Of a stretch of 64,000 bases of DNA, positions 8,289 through 13,521 are shown one piece after another. Both the position numbers and the translations under genes were made by a program. Source of the DNA: Alteromonadaceae bacterium Bs31 (GTDB lineage: Bacteria; Pseudomonadota; Gammaproteobacteria; Pseudomonadales; Cellvibrionaceae). The stretch spans positions 394,386 to 458,385 of the forward strand of contig FXAI01000002.1 of NCBI GenBank assembly GCA_900177435.1. The letters are read 5' to 3'. Within the stretch, counting starts at the first letter, position 1, and every line of letters starts with the position of its first letter. A model generated the notes under the pieces. That model was not told the origin of the DNA and made no database searches. It saw nothing but the letters and a program-made list of their open reading frames with translations.

Positions 8289-9584
8289 TTAAAAACAAGA
8301 CGTTTGCACGTCATTTAAAAACCCGCGATCCACGCCACTGCGCACAGTAATCTCATTGGGGCAGGGCACTTCACGGTAGTCCAGCGCCGGGTTGTCTGCC
8401 GCCTGGAACCAATCAACATAGAACATGCAGCCCTCATAGGCCTCGCTTAGGCCCCGTGAACCGAAAACACTTTGGCAACTTTGGGCAAGGCAATTTTTGT
8501 AGCTGTCCAGGCTATCGTTCCAGCCAAGCTTTTGCTTGCAGGCAGCCAGCAGCCCACCGTATTGAGCGCCCAGTTGCTCACTGGGTACGCCCCACTGATC
8601 AGAACAGGCATTGAACGCACCAACGCCGCCGCCAGGCACCAGAATGTCAAACTGACCACCACTAACGTCATAGCCAATATTCGTGGTTTGAACAATCATC
8701 CGCTTACCTGCCAGTGCCGCTGAACCGGGGTCATCGCCACCGTTATAGGAGCTGCCGGTAAAGCGCAATTCGTAGCAGCGCCCACATACGTCCCCGCTGG
8801 CTGCGGCGGCAAAGCCATAGGCAAGGTTTTCGTTAATCACCCAGGGCGCCATGCTTTGGCACATATGGGCGGCACCGCCAGCATCACAGGAACTGCCTGC
8901 GTCCACGTCGGAGAGTACAGCATCGCTGGCTGAGCAGGCGGGCAGTGGGTCCACGCCGGAGGGTACATTGCCCTGCCAACTGCAGTGCGCCTTGCAGCAA
9001 TCCCAATAACGGGTGGAATAGCCAGGGCAGCCCAACCAGTCTCCCCCTGATGAAGAACTGCTGCTACTTGATGAACTTGAAGAGCTGCTGGAGCTGGACG
9101 TCGATGAGCTTGAGCTGCTTGACGAACTGGAAGAGCTGCTAGAACTGGATGTTGAAGAGCTAGAGCTACTACTGCTGGATGAACCAGAGCCGCTGGAAGA
9201 GCTGGAGGAGCTACTGGAAGTACCGGAAGATGAATTTGTTGAGCTGCTTGAACTCGATGAAGAGCTGGAGCTGCTACTAGATGAGCCTGGCTGAAGGGAG
9301 CCAGAAGAGCTGGAGCTGCTAGATGAGCTTGGCTGAAGGGAGCCAGAGGAGCTGGAACTGCTACTTGAGCTTGAGCTGCTGCTAACTGTATCACCGGGCA
9401 AATTTATTGCGCCGCTGGATGAATTACTTGAAGAGCTAGTGGATGAACTGGAGCTGCTACTTGAGGAAGAAGAGCTGCTGTCTGCCAACGGCGGCAGGCT
9501 GGTACCTCCACCCCCGCCACATGCAGATAAAACAGTAACAGTGACAAGAGCGCACAAGGAGCGCTTAAGGTTTACTACAAACAT
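8289..9584 (-). CDS. GH45 endoglucanase, lipoprotein with poly-serine linker
   Basis: A 431-residue secreted endo-beta-1,4-glucanase. The N terminus is a lipoprotein signal with lipobox LSAC (Cys22) followed by a Gly run. Residues about 36-181 are an almost pure Ser linker interrupted by short islands (NLPGD, SLQP, GSGS, STNS). The catalytic module begins at about 182. It contains STRYWDCCK (catalytic base Asp near 192) and the second Asp in FDILVPGGGVG (near 313), preceded seven residues earlier by the accessory Asp (GYDVSGG), matching the spacing in the well-known fungal Cel45A. Many Cys residues suggest disulphides. No CBM is visible, so lipid anchoring plus the linker probably presents the enzyme on the cell surface. 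Confidence 0.93.
   Translation of the reverse strand: MFVVNLKRSLCALVTVTVLSACGGGGGTSLPPLADSSSSSSSSSSSSSTSSSSNSSSGAINLPGDTVSSSSSSSSSSSSSGSLQPSSSSSSSSSGSLQPGSSSSSSSSSSSSSSSTNSSSGTSSSSSSSSSGSGSSSSSSSSSSTSSSSSSSSSSSSSSSSTSSSSSSSSSSSSSSSSSGGDWLGCPGYSTRYWDCCKAHCSWQGNVPSGVDPLPACSASDAVLSDVDAGSSCDAGGAAHMCQSMAPWVINENLAYGFAAAASGDVCGRCYELRFTGSSYNGGDDPGSAALAGKRMIVQTTNIGYDVSGGQFDILVPGGGVGAFNACSDQWGVPSEQLGAQYGGLLAACKQKLGWNDSLDSYKNCLAQSCQSVFGSRGLSEAYEGCMFYVDWFQAADNPALDYREVPCPNEITVRSGVDRGFLNDVQTSCF
9040..9480 (-). repeat. poly-serine linker coding repeat of the GH45 gene
   Basis: A low-complexity tract made mainly of AGC, AGT, TCA and TCC serine codons, with mixed codon use that avoids a perfect microsatellite. 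It encodes the roughly 145-residue flexible linker between the lipobox and the GH45 module. The complementary strand shows long frames rich in Glu and Leu that are artefacts of this repeat. Confidence 0.85.
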
Positions 9585-9827: not shown

Positions 9828-12206
9828 TTGCCCGCTATGCCCACCAAAAAGCCCTTAAGTCGATTTTCCCTCACGACCCTTTTTGTATTTGGCGTTATTT
9901 TTCCCGTCGTAGTGATTGTGCTGGAAATCAGTTTCGCCTTTTGTGCCGAGGCCTTATTCGACCCATTACCAACACTGTTTCACACCGCCTTAGTGTGTTT
10001 GGTGCCCTTGAGTAATTTTTTAATGTGGTGGAATTTGCAACAGCAAAAGCCTTTATACACTCGGCACATACTGTGGCTTGCGGCGTTTAGCATTGCCGTG
10101 GCCGGTTTTTACACCTTGATATTTCTGCCGATTTTACCCATAGCTGCAATCGCTATTCTCTACCTTGGTTTTGGTTTGTTACCCTTTGGTCCATTGTCGG
10201 CGCTGCTCAGTGGCATAAGCTTGTATCGCCGACTAAATCGGAAGCTGGAGCACAATAAAATTAAGCGAAGGCATTTTTGGCTGGCTAATGTACTCGGCTT
10301 GTTGCTGTTGTCGGCGCTTGATGCTCCCACGGCCATTACAAATTATGGAATGGATTTGGCTGCCAGCAAGGATAAACATGAGCAACAACGGGGAATCAAT
10401 TTGTTGCGACATTTGGGCGATCGAGAATTAATGTTGCGCAAATGTTACTCCAACTCAAACCCTACTCTTGGGCCCTTGAGTTTTATCACTAACTTTTTTA
10501 TCAGCGAGCACAGGAACTCGCCTGCTGATGCGCGCACAAGCTACTATCGAGTGACGGGAGAGCCTTTTAATCTCGCGGCCATTCCGCACGAAGGCTCACA
10601 GTGGAGAAATTTTCGTAGTTTTCGCTTTGACAGTGATATGGGAGGTACGCGCGTGGGTGGTCGTCAGCAGGGCTTGGCGCTCAAGAGCTCAAGGCTGGAT
10701 GGCGTAATAAACGCTGAGCAGGCTAATGGTTATCTGGAATGGACCTTTGTTGTCAGCAACGCAGAATTTATGCAGCAGGAAGCGCGATTACAGTTGGTTT
10801 TACCGCCGGGCGGTGTGGTGTCGAGGGCTACGCTTTGGATAAATGGTGAAGAGCGCGAAGCGGCCTACGCCAGTAAAGGAAAAGTGCGTGAAGCTTACCA
10901 AAGAGTCGTTCGGGTAAGAAGAGATCCCTTGCTAGTCACGCCAGCTGGTTCAGAGCGGGTAATGCTGCAAGCTTTTCCGGTGCCTGCCAATGGTGAAATG
11001 AAATTCAAGGTGGGTATTACGGCACCTTTGTCGATCGCAGGGCCTCAGAGCGCGGCCTTGGTTCTACCCGCCATCGTCGATCGAAATTTTAATATCGAAG
11101 CTGACTTCACTCACAAGTTGTGGGTTGAATCCAAAGCGCAAATGCGCATCGATGCAAGTGAACTCTCTGCCGCAAAAGTTAACGCCAATGTATATCGAAT
11201 ACAGGGCGAGCTGCCAGACAGCGCTTTGGTGAATCCGCGTAAGGCAATTTCTCTTAGTGCTGCTGCCTTCGCGTCGTCGCTGCTCGTGAGTGGTAGCGAG
11301 GGCGAAGCTATTGAGCAGACCATCGTTGAAAAAATAACAGAGGTGGGTGGCTTGTTTATCGTGATAGATGGTTCGCGGGCGCTTGCGGATTCCAAAAGAG
11401 AATTAATTGACTCTCTTGATCACCTTCCCCTGGGCTTGCCGGTAGGTATCGCCATCGGTGGCGAAAAACCTGAACGACGTGCACTACTTCCCCTTAATGA
11501 GCAGCATAAAACTGAGCTTAAAGCTGTTATAAAAAATACCGATTTTATTGGTGGCCAAACTAACAGCGATGCCTTAACCCAAGGTTTGCTCGAGTTGGAA
11601 AAACATGAAAACCCGATGCTACTTTGGATTCACGGACCACAGCCAGTAGATTTTGGCGATAGTGAAAAGCTGCTGCAGGCAACAGAGCGCTTAACGCAGA
11701 TGCCGGAGGTTGTAGACTATAGCGTAGAGGCCGGTCCAAACCAATTGTTGCAGGAAGGTGAATGGAGTGTGTGGAGCAGGCATCTGCCATTGCTGCATGG
11801 TGTGGGGCAGGATTTAAGGCAGTTTTTTGTCAGTATAAATCGTTCTCAGTGGACGATCAGGCGAAGCATAAAAGCTGATGGCGAAGAGACTGGTTCGACG
11901 GGAGTACTTGATAATCACGTTGCTCGCTTATGGGCCTACCAGCAAGTGATTCGTGCTCTGCGTGCGGGCGACCGCAGCGAGAAGGTATTGGCACTGGCAG
12001 TTAATCATCGTTTAGTCACGCCCATCAGTGGTGCGGTAGTACTGGAGAGTGAGGCGCAATATGAGCAGAACGATTTAAGCCCGGTAACAAAAGACTCTGT
12101 TCCCACTATCCCCGAACCCCACGAATGGATTTTATTATTAATCGTACTGGCGGCCCTCTTATGGTTTATTCGCAACAAGCCCAGGCTCATACTTCACTCG
12201 CGTTAA
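9828..12206 (+). CDS. VIT-domain integral membrane protein with PEP-CTERM-like sorting tail (exosortase target)
   Basis: A 792-residue protein. Residues about 15-165 hold several membrane helices. A VIT-like domain spans about 295-420 (GYLEWTFVVSN, then AYQRVVRVRRDPLLV), and a von Willebrand A-like region follows from about 505 (FIVIDGSRAL); its metal site reads DGSRA rather than the canonical DxSxS. The last 37 residues are a textbook sorting tail: PTIPEPHEW, a hydrophobic helix, then basic residues (RNKPR). The coding sequence for this tail overlaps the start of the exosortase gene. This resembles one-target exosortase systems (the MSEP-CTERM/exosortase K and VIT/exosortase N pairs known in other phyla). 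The start could also be the ATG at 9837. Confidence 0.8.
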   Translation: MPAMPTKKPLSRFSLTTLFVFGVIFPVVVIVLEISFAFCAEALFDPLPTLFHTALVCLVPLSNFLMWWNLQQQKPLYTRHILWLAAFSIAVAGFYTLIFLPILPIAAIAILYLGFGLLPFGPLSALLSGISLYRRLNRKLEHNKIKRRHFWLANVLGLLLLSALDAPTAITNYGMDLAASKDKHEQQRGINLLRHLGDRELMLRKCYSNSNPTLGPLSFITNFFISEHRNSPADARTSYYRVTGEPFNLAAIPHEGSQWRNFRSFRFDSDMGGTRVGGRQQGLALKSSRLDGVINAEQANGYLEWTFVVSNAEFMQQEARLQLVLPPGGVVSRATLWINGEEREAAYASKGKVREAYQRVVRVRRDPLLVTPAGSERVMLQAFPVPANGEMKFKVGITAPLSIAGPQSAALVLPAIVDRNFNIEADFTHKLWVESKAQMRIDASELSAAKVNANVYRIQGELPDSALVNPRKAISLSAAAFASSLLVSGSEGEAIEQTIVEKITEVGGLFIVIDGSRALADSKRELIDSLDHLPLGLPVGIAIGGEKPERRALLPLNEQHKTELKAVIKNTDFIGGQTNSDALTQGLLELEKHENPMLLWIHGPQPVDFGDSEKLLQATERLTQMPEVVDYSVEAGPNQLLQEGEWSVWSRHLPLLHGVGQDLRQFFVSINRSQWTIRRSIKADGEETGSTGVLDNHVARLWAYQQVIRALRAGDRSEKVLALAVNHRLVTPISGAVVLESEAQYEQNDLSPVTKDSVPTIPEPHEWILLLIVLAALLWFIRNKPRLILHSR

Positions 12207-13024
12207 TAAAAGCGCTTGTTGCTCTCGGCGTTTTGCTGGCCGGCTACTGGTCCGCCTGGCAATGGTTTTTATATCGTCTCGCAGAATCGCCAGTAGAGGT
12301 ATTTTGTCTGCTTGGCGTATTAATTTTTTTTGGCGGGCTTTTTTTTCGTGGATTAATTCTGTCAAAACAAATCTATGCCCCGCCGATGCTGTTTCTTAGT
12401 TCATTGTTCTTAGTCTATGGCCTGCTGAGTATTTTTCAGGCACCGAATATTGTTACAAGTGGAGTCGCGTTCAGCAGTTTATGTTTGTTTTTTTACTGTG
12501 TAAGCGCGGGGCGAATGCCACCGGCAGGCTTCTGGGGAGTGTGCCTACTGGCCGCTCCCATCGTTCCCTCCCTTCAATTTGTACTGGGCTACCCGGCACG
12601 TATGCTCTCTGCCATTATAACTATTCCCATGTTACAGGCGCAGGGATTCGCCGTAAGCAGGGAAGGAGTGTACTTAAAATGGCAAAGTGAACTACTGCAA
12701 TTTGACGCCCCCTGCAGCGGTATCAGTATGTTGTGGGCGGCGCTGTTTTTTGGTAGCTGTGTTGCCTATTTGTTGCAGCTGAAATGGCGGCGCTATTTGC
12801 TTTTTTGCTTTGCTGCTTGCCTTGCATGCATCATTGGCAATGTCGTGCGTGCCTGCAGCCTTTTTTATCTGCAAAATGGCGTGCTGTCCGACAATAAAAT
12901 ACCCGCATTTATCGATGCGGATACCTTGCACCAGGCAGTAGGCGCAGTCAGCTTTTTGGCCATTATCAGTGTTCTGATCGCCGCACTTTTGTTGATGCAG
13001 ACACGTGAGGGGCTCATGAAATGA
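12161..13024 (+). CDS. exosortase (EpsH/Xrt family membrane peptidase/transpeptidase)
   Basis: A multi-span membrane protein of 287 residues (299 if the ATG at 12125 is used). The family's catalytic triad is visible: Cys in FDAPCSGISMLWA, Arg in GNVVRACSLFYLQ and His in DTLHQAVGAVSF. Exosortases process proteins carrying a C-terminal PEP-CTERM signal. The gene start lies inside the coding sequence for the tail of the upstream VIT protein, and its stop overlaps the start of the EpsI-like gene (ATGA), so the three genes form one tightly coupled operon. The exact Xrt subtype cannot be set without profile scores. Confidence 0.88.
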   Translation: MVYSQQAQAHTSLALIKALVALGVLLAGYWSAWQWFLYRLAESPVEVFCLLGVLIFFGGLFFRGLILSKQIYAPPMLFLSSLFLVYGLLSIFQAPNIVTSGVAFSSLCLFFYCVSAGRMPPAGFWGVCLLAAPIVPSLQFVLGYPARMLSAIITIPMLQAQGFAVSREGVYLKWQSELLQFDAPCSGISMLWAALFFGSCVAYLLQLKWRRYLLFCFAACLACIIGNVVRACSLFYLQNGVLSDNKIPAFIDADTLHQAVGAVSFLAIISVLIAALLLMQTREGLMK

Positions 13025-13521
13025 AGCCTTACACACTATTTATTGCGTGTGCGCTCTTCGCTTTTTTTGCCCCCAAGTTCGGGAAAATCGAGCCCCTTGA
13101 ATTTAACAAACCAAGCTGGCCAGAGTTTTATAATAATCAAGCCCTTGTAGCGCTTCCCCTCAGTGAAAGAGAAATGCGTTTTGCTGAGGGTTTCCCCGGT
13201 GCTATTGGTCGGTTTCAAGCAGGGAAAAATGAAATTATTATTCGGCGTGTGGAAGAGCCGACGCGCAAGCTGCACCCAGCGCGGGATTGTTTTAAAGGCA
13301 TTGGTTACAAGATCATAGATAAACCGTTGTCACTTAACCACGAGGGTATTGCCATGGCCTGTTTTCATGCACAAAAAGGTGAGGCTAAGTTTAAGGTTTG
13401 CGAATATGTGCAAGGTGACCAGGGTGAAAGCTGGTCGGATATTTCCAGTTGGTATTGGGCGGCTTTATTTTCGCGAAATAGCCGATGGTGGTCCTATGTT
13501 ATTGCCCAGCCCATACAATGA
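13021..13521 (+). CDS. EpsI/DUF3485-like exosortase-associated protein
   Basis: A 166-residue protein with an N-terminal signal anchor (LFIACALFAFFAP) and a periplasmic part containing TRKLHPARDCFKGIGY, which matches the H-x-P-x-x-C type motif of exosortase-associated EpsI proteins. It overlaps the exosortase gene by four bases. EpsI domains are either fused to or encoded next to exosortases and are presumed to assist processing; the mechanism is not established. Two further Cys (MACFHAQ, KVCEYVQ) lie downstream. A hairpin covers its stop codon. Confidence 0.7.
   Translation: MKPYTLFIACALFAFFAPKFGKIEPLEFNKPSWPEFYNNQALVALPLSEREMRFAEGFPGAIGRFQAGKNEIIIRRVEEPTRKLHPARDCFKGIGYKIIDKPLSLNHEGIAMACFHAQKGEAKFKVCEYVQGDQGESWSDISSWYWAALFSRNSRWWSYVIAQPIQ

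Follow-up and report, generated by a model that had tools for sequence, protein, structure and literature searches.

In the 64,000-nucleotide stretch of DNA analysed here (Alteromonadaceae bacterium Bs31, contig FXAI01000002.1), which we call the window, three genes on the forward strand encode a membrane protein with VIT and vWA domains, an exosortase and an EpsI-like protein, their ends overlapping in the open reading frame (ORF) calls. Sequence comparisons make it likely that these genes form a dedicated exosortase system, in which one enzyme would serve one substrate, the VIT/vWA protein (hereafter the cargo). Such a system is a new variant of the dedicated exosortase, itself a known kind of system; the available part of PMC3237569 defines a dedicated sorting system as one enzyme with one target in a genome. 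A single target was found in silico in the host genome (G000) and in 16 others where the adjoining exosortase is the only one detected. The gene order given in the original prediction, a VIT protein with a PEP-CTERM-like tail followed by an exosortase and an EpsI-like gene with overlapping ends, is borne out by the ORFs and by Pfam and recurs in 36 of 80 relatives of the cargo; we refer to this arrangement as the unit.

Enzymes and targets per genome

We searched 52 genome entries for exosortases with the Pfam model PF09721. These comprised 37 distinct unit genomes under 38 entries (the matches of G673 and G901 were the same, and these two entries count once), one genome with an XrtQ-type locus (G823) and 13 with a cargo relative but without an exosortase adjacent to it. 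The unit exosortase was the only exosortase detected in 16 of the 37 unit genomes. When the six-frame translations of these 16 were searched with a profile of the unit tails, the sole match at E ≤ 0.01 was in every case the adjacent VIT protein. VIT tails were used to build the profile, so that match arises by construction; what carries information is the lack of any other. Matches to the sorting-signal model PF07589 at the same threshold occurred in five of the 16 genomes, and all were again the adjacent VIT protein. These 16 genomes, with nothing else matching, are the strongest evidence for what appears to be a one-enzyme, one-target relationship, and they extend support for the predicted single-substrate system to genomes other than the host, 15 of them metagenome bins. 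The other 21 unit genomes contain two to four exosortases and 1-33 PF07589 matches; the soil bacteria Pseudoduganella violaceinigra and Duganella each have three exosortases.

Several observations weigh against this interpretation. Judged by their titles, 15 of the 16 genomes are metagenome bins and may lack parts; the remaining one, from Planctomycetes bacterium Poly30 (G903), is the complete chromosome of an isolate. Stray matches appeared at weaker E values, to the tail profile in G891 (0.044) and to PF07589 in Poly30 (0.05), G891 (0.06), G906 (0.2) and G887 (0.3); PF07589 matches at E ≤ 0.3 were also found in three of 14 control genomes. The tail of the window cargo is itself missed by PF07589 (cut-off 20.7 bits) even at E ≤ 1, so unlike tails could escape too. 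In a Blastocatellia metagenome-assembled genome (MAG; G922, locus L067) the cargo carries a PEPETW tail and the genome gave no PF09721 match; the assembly may be incomplete. In G980 the unit is permuted (L161, 6969-10813): exosortase and EpsI-like genes precede the VIT cargo on the same strand, in that order, and the tail reads IPEPGLV and not PEPxxW. The EpsI-like protein of the window bears only a weak resemblance to canonical EpsI (hhalign probability 20% and 43%). Finally, conserved adjacency and a matching tail, both read from sequence, do not prove cleavage.

The host genome (5.0 Mb in 46 contigs) contains a second exosortase, at 123264-124019 of contig C26, which is an XrtD (475.9 bits, cut-off 400) and carries a fused EpsI domain of the canonical type (TIGR02914). 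A PF07589 search of the whole genome gave six matches at E ≤ 1, three of them over cut-off, and placed none in the window, in agreement with the earlier statement that the window holds no other sorting-signal protein. The three over cut-off have VPLPG tails (C45:306178, C26:33946 and C26:115404), and a simple pattern search of the ORF ends revealed neither a PEP nor a PLP tail for the three weaker ones. At E ≤ 0.1 the unit-tail profile, to which the VIT protein itself contributed, matches that protein and no other in the host, whose genome encodes a single VIT domain. Many host proteins with the same tail, which the original prediction named as the case against it, are thus absent. One cell thus has two systems that differ in their tails, the XrtD with VPLPG and the unit with its own. 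Alternatively, the VIT protein could be a client of a general exosortase, here the XrtD, while the adjacent exosortase acts on different or further proteins. The presence of the XrtD fits this idea, as do the cargo relatives without an adjacent exosortase, in which generic PEP-CTERM tails (PEP[G/S], helix glycine) are commoner than in unit cargo; 12 of the 13 such genomes searched, all except G922, have other exosortases. We nevertheless think it very unlikely, given that the three tails fitting XrtD are unlike the TIPEPHEW of the cargo and that 16 genomes have a unit exosortase alone, without a further tail at E ≤ 0.01.

The unit, its proteins and their distribution

A scan of a genome collection with an alignment of the cargo gave 138 relatives, and the counts here rest on 80 of them. 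An exosortase is the next gene downstream on the same strand in 36 of the 80. EpsI follows it directly at 35 of these 36 loci, the contig of L030 ending before EpsI would be in view, and the two are fused at seven. Relative to the end of the cargo gene, the exosortase domain starts between 48 nucleotides (nt) upstream and 107 nt downstream, with the exception of L073 (334 nt downstream). The 36 loci belong to six phyla (Pseudomonadota, Thermodesulfobacteriota, Planctomycetota, Armatimonadota, Elusimicrobiota and Sumerlaeota), so the trio is not the gammaproteobacterial version it had been taken for; isolates among the carriers are Duganella, Pseudoduganella, Peristeroidobacter, Sphingomonas, Exilibacterium, Pseudomaricurvus and Planctomycetes bacterium Poly30.

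Within the host's own family, order and class the unit is rare and scattered. Among 144 genomes of the family, strong exosortase matches (E<1e-45) were found in three besides the window's own, and when neighbours were collected, as had been proposed, all three carried the trio with different flanking genes; two weaker matches (about 1e-6) in longer frames are probably other exosortases. A single-sequence cargo search of 390 genomes of the order found the window's own cargo alone. In the class, where 369 genomes were searched, the exosortase profile gave eight matches at E ≤ 1e-8: that of the window, two from further unit genomes (G813, locus L162, and G673, the genome of L073), the XrtQ-type G823 and four weak ones. 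Neighbours beyond the trio are little conserved, the largest cluster of flanking homologues among those listed covering five of 37 loci (the 36 and the window). Three Oxalobacteraceae loci have flanks in common and three others have one regulator-like ORF in common. At L162 a CreB/CreC-like two-component pair, scoring under cut-off, lies beside the unit (11034-13417). Cargo and exosortase distances are strongly correlated (Mantel test, 36 rows without the truncated L034; r=0.878, a value that none of 2000 shuffles reached), a result that joint descent would produce by itself as well.

To assign the three proteins we used the subtype models and curated cut-offs of NCBIfam release 20.0 and the domain models of Pfam. 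The window exosortase is over cut-off for its superfamily (Exosortase_EpsH, PF09721, 72.7 bits, cut-off 25.7) and for the general signature TIGR04178 (44 bits vs 23). It reaches the cut-off of no named Xrt model in NCBIfam, the nearest being XrtQ (NF012182; 95.3 bits, cut-off 270), followed by XrtA (50.8/208), XrtT (NF033770; 41.8/250) and XrtN (TIGR04476; 26.9/200), and the exosortase K model is absent from its matches at E ≤ 1. Scores to XrtQ range from 95 to 173 bits for the window enzyme and its ten scanned relatives. The scanned members thus reach no named subtype cut-off in this release, and the match to a well-described subtype that would have spoken against the prediction was not seen. 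The cargo passes the Pfam VIT model (30.3 bits, cut-off 26.5) and no named cargo model; TIGR04477, the XrtN cargo, is nearest (134.2 bits, cut-off 250, E 4.8e-39), followed by the MSEP-CTERM model TIGR04286 (36.8/150), whose best stretch, residues 19-140, takes in the N-terminal membrane region. No TIGR03788 match was obtained for the cargo at E ≤ 1. Membership of XrtN or XrtK was considered and is ruled out by these scores. The XrtN and XrtK pairs that had been suggested as comparisons hold for the cargo, which is homologous to TIGR04477 and TIGR04286, and not for the enzyme, whose nearest named exosortase is XrtQ.

The EpsI-like protein matches the C-terminal half of XrtT (39.4 bits, cut-off 250) and, insignificantly, XrtN at E ≤ 1, and has no TIGR02914 (EpsI) match at that threshold. 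Its AlphaFold2 (AF2) model is confident (pLDDT 93.5). The best Foldseek match to this model has E=0.02 and none reaches E ≤ 0.001, so the fold gives no clue to the role of the protein.

The coordinates are collected in Table 1. The exosortase ORF opens further upstream, and the in-frame ATG at 12161 was taken as the start because the conserved domain begins downstream of it; on this basis the cargo and exosortase genes overlap by 46 nt (12161-12206), and the exosortase and EpsI-like genes by 4 nt (13021-13024). A promoter and terminator scan found no promoter-like site (shuffles mean 4.1) and six terminator-like sites against a mean of 5.8 in shuffles. A genomic island was considered and rejected, as the GC content over the unit (0.46-0.52) is similar to that of the surroundings. 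Directly upstream on the opposite strand, and outside the conserved unit, lies a gene for a protein with very long polyserine stretches (8289-9584, minus strand).

Table 1. Positions in the window of the three genes and of features within their products
Feature	Coordinates	Strand	Basis and remarks
VIT/vWA membrane protein, presumed sole substrate	9837..12206	+	789 amino acids from ATG 9837; TTG 9828 also possible
N-terminal membrane region, probably five spans	9861..10361	+	AF2 secondary structure and Kyte-Doolittle scan; span number inferred
VIT domain	10737..11012	+	Pfam match; residues 304-395 of the TTG-numbered protein
vWA domain, altered metal site	11340..11843	+	model residues 502-669; DGS kept at 511-513; positions assigned by eye
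PEP motif of the C-terminal sorting tail (VPTIPEPHEW)	12111..12119	+	codons of the motif
Remaining sorting tail, hydrophobic helix (model residues 761-780) then basic end	12120..12203	+	AF2, Kyte-Doolittle
Exosortase, XrtQ lineage, without named subtype	12161..13024	+	287 amino acids; ORF opens at ATG 12125; profiles and tree
Presumed catalytic Cys codon (APCSG)	12713..12715	+	Cys in 37/37 rows
Presumed catalytic Arg codon	12848..12850	+	Arg in 37/37 rows
Presumed catalytic His codon	12929..12931	+	His in 37/37 rows
EpsI-like accessory protein	13021..13521	+	166 amino acids, hydrophobic N-terminus

The cargo, its tail and its relatives

The AF2 model of the cargo (mean pLDDT 90.7) shows five long N-terminal helices (residues 9-33, 47-69, 75-110, 117-136 and 144-175), a VIT-vWA core and a final helix. 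Its best match in the PDB is inter-alpha-inhibitor heavy chain 1 (ITIH1; Foldseek E 8e-22), and the ITIH1 structures 6fpy/6fpz align with model residues 275-750 (VIA-align Z 16.7, 415 residues, rmsd 8.3). Within the vWA domain, where positions were assigned by eye, the Asp and Ser of the DGS motif are kept in 37 and 36 of the 37 unit rows. At the third Ser position the window has Ala and 12 of 37 rows have Ser, the strand that usually carries a metal-binding Asp reads WIHG in the window, and at the putative metal-binding Thr position the window alone has Thr, the other 36 of 37 rows having Asp or Asn. We considered the altered metal site as a mark of the subtype and rejected it, as DGS is retained in relatives with and without an adjacent exosortase alike, and the other metal residues are for the most part missing from both. 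The degenerate site of the original prediction is therefore real and at the same time common to most of the cargo family, and does not set a distinct subtype apart.

The tail of the window cargo has the expected plan of motif, hydrophobic helix and basic end, and is touched insignificantly by two PEP-CTERM protein models (13.9 and 12.8 bits). Of the 37 unit rows, all have the first P and the E of the motif and 36 have the second P. The residue after PEP is E, H, Q, D or R in 36 of 37 unit tails, compared with 10 of 40 from relatives without an adjacent exosortase; a W stands two residues further on in 34/37 vs 15/40, and a glycine occurs in the helix in 1/37 vs 29/40. These counts leave out L077, L091, L101 and L103, which have no readable tail in register, and p values for the comparison are too small because the rows are related.

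Given the N-terminal bundle predicted by the model, the cargo probably remains an inner-membrane protein that is fixed at both its ends. Five spans with positive loops inside would make the core periplasmic and the basic tail end cytoplasmic, as PEP-CTERM proteins require, and cutting at PEP would then remove the second anchor only. PEP-CTERM proteins, one exception family aside, are described in the available part of PMC1569441 as being without other membrane spans.

In the mechanism we propose, the helix bundle would place the cargo in the inner membrane with its VIT-vWA part in the periplasm, and the PEP-CTERM-type tail would cross back through the membrane. The adjoining exosortase, presumably aided by the EpsI-like protein, would recognise the PEP[E/H]xW-helix-basic tail and cleave it near PEP through a site formed by its conserved Cys, Arg and His, which we take to be the catalytic residues of the exosortase family. 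The new C-terminus would probably be joined to a membrane or envelope acceptor. A sortase-like Cys mechanism was proposed by Haft and colleagues (PMC1569441, available part). By analogy with archaeosortase A, for whose substrates lipid anchoring is reported in the accessible part of PMC7157517, our best guess is that the acceptor is probably a lipid.

It is also conceivable that no sorting takes place, and that the three proteins are parts of a fixed complex in the inner membrane, the tail being a second anchor only. The cargo already has a multi-helix anchor at its N-terminus, so release would not be the purpose, and the genes overlap and their families are inherited together. Against this, the Cys, Arg and His of the exosortase are invariant, the conservation of the PEP residues goes beyond the needs of an anchor, and the same tail plan is found with XrtQ and a different cargo, and we regard such a complex as improbable.

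The membrane-anchored N-terminus of the cargo speaks against simple secretion as the purpose of the system. We would suggest, as a tentative and doubtful possibility, that the VIT/vWA protein is a recurrent private client of C-terminal sorting enzymes of different origin, and that here it serves as a covalent cross-linker, with its N-terminus in the inner membrane and its C-terminus, just beyond the VIT-vWA fold, joined by the exosortase to another molecule of the envelope, a lipid or a glycan, so that the domain would be tethered at both ends. This would parallel the animal inter-alpha-inhibitor heavy chains, in which the C-terminus is joined to a glycosaminoglycan. Exosortases are hard to study, as usually one enzyme serves many proteins and lies amid exopolysaccharide genes. 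The compact and widespread trio offers a minimal system in which to ask to what exosortases attach their clients and what EpsI does.

The remaining 44 of the 80 loci, mostly from Verrucomicrobiota and relatives, have no adjacent exosortase by the unit model, nine of which have less than 1000 nt downstream and cannot be judged. A quick cargo tree needs at least five changes in the presence of an adjacent exosortase, and the private enzyme has therefore been gained or lost repeatedly. Cargo with a private exosortase and cargo with none nearby and a generic tail would allow a natural comparison of how tail and enzyme specificity change in concert. We also observed a PadR regulator directly upstream at 32 of 40 judgeable loci without an adjacent exosortase (L033, L045, L050 and others) against two of 32 unit loci, and PF03551 was confirmed for both PadR-like proteins scanned. 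An N-terminal extension of at least 60 amino acids is present in 37 of the 44 cargo proteins without an adjacent exosortase and in 10 of 36 unit cargo. A sub-cut-off HAAS match was found in one of six scanned cargo without an adjacent exosortase (L045), and also in the unit cargo L065. In a Candidatus Poribacteria MAG (L077, 6001-8082) a cargo that falls inside the exosortase-linked clade stops before the LVTPVSGAVVLE motif and the tail, and no exosortase lies in the 5.9 kb downstream, so that tail and enzyme are missing together.

XrtQ and other known systems

Exosortases over the XrtQ cut-off were found in none of 274 genomes of the class and in four of 398 of the phylum (L157-L160; G1256, G307, G1097 and G1135), where they score 335-398 bits compared with 95 for the window enzyme. 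All four loci resemble the window in joining a VIT/vWA cargo with a PEP-CTERM tail, the exosortase and an EpsI-like protein. Unlike the window cargo, theirs is TIGR03788-like (405-424 bits, cut-off 551.65) and not of the multi-helix type. At these loci a sortase-target family is thus paired with an exosortase in place of a sortase. A fifth locus, L163, has the same plan and groups with the XrtQ loci in the tree, and the EpsI-like proteins of all five score 134-169 bits to the window-type model. A CreB/CreC-like pair over cut-off (CreB 304/273, CreC 544/356) lies beside the XrtQ locus L159 (10760-13118).

In the exosortase tree the unit exosortases and XrtQ separate together from 28 others with support of 100, and the unit exosortases alone form a group with weak support (59); the tree leaves out L128, L129, L123 (same genome as L122) and L030, and its set of others is without XrtN, XrtT and XrtK rows. 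The tree and the cut-off scores therefore place the window enzyme in the XrtQ lineage, outside XrtQ as curated. A full-text search returned, among the matches listed, no literature on the trio, its breadth, its single-target status or its place next to XrtQ; PMC10936215 and PMC6168606 concern exosortase F in the parts available.

Could the system simply be XrtQ, or XrtN, as already described? XrtQ is the best exosortase match, shares the gene plan and is poorly separated from the unit exosortases in the tree. We consider this unlikely, as the window enzyme and its ten scanned relatives stay well below the XrtQ cut-off, the window cargo lacks the match to TIGR03788 that characterises XrtQ cargo, and the score to XrtN is far below its cut-off. 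On these sequence grounds the proposed dedicated system of the window is best described as an XrtQ-lineage exosortase joined to cargo of the XrtN/MSEP type.

Exosortase N and its TIGR04477 VIT protein form a Bacteroidetes system (TIGR04476/TIGR04477), whose cargo is homologous to that of the window, below cut-off, while the exosortases are far apart. The MSEP-CTERM protein is paired with exosortase K; its homology to the window cargo is weak, and the enzymes do not match. XrtD with its VPLPA-CTERM tails is, like the unit, an exosortase acting with C-terminal tails, but in the host it has three presumed clients and a fused EpsI domain. Archaeosortase A has several substrates. It is archaeal, unlike the window enzyme, and is a distant homologue of exosortases that acts on C-terminal tails, with a lipid-anchored substrate according to the available parts of PMC7157517 and PMC3237569. 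The available part of PMC3237569 also describes VIT/vWA homologues whose tails are of the GlyGly-CTERM, LPXTG or PEP-CTERM type, those with LPXTG being served by a dedicated sortase. The idea that VIT/vWA proteins swap tails is therefore not new. That marine proteobacterial sortase/target pair (TIGR03784, TIGR03788) resembles the window in that a VIT/vWA protein is the sole client of the adjoining enzyme, and differs from it in having an unrelated enzyme, a classical sortase, and an LPXTG tail.

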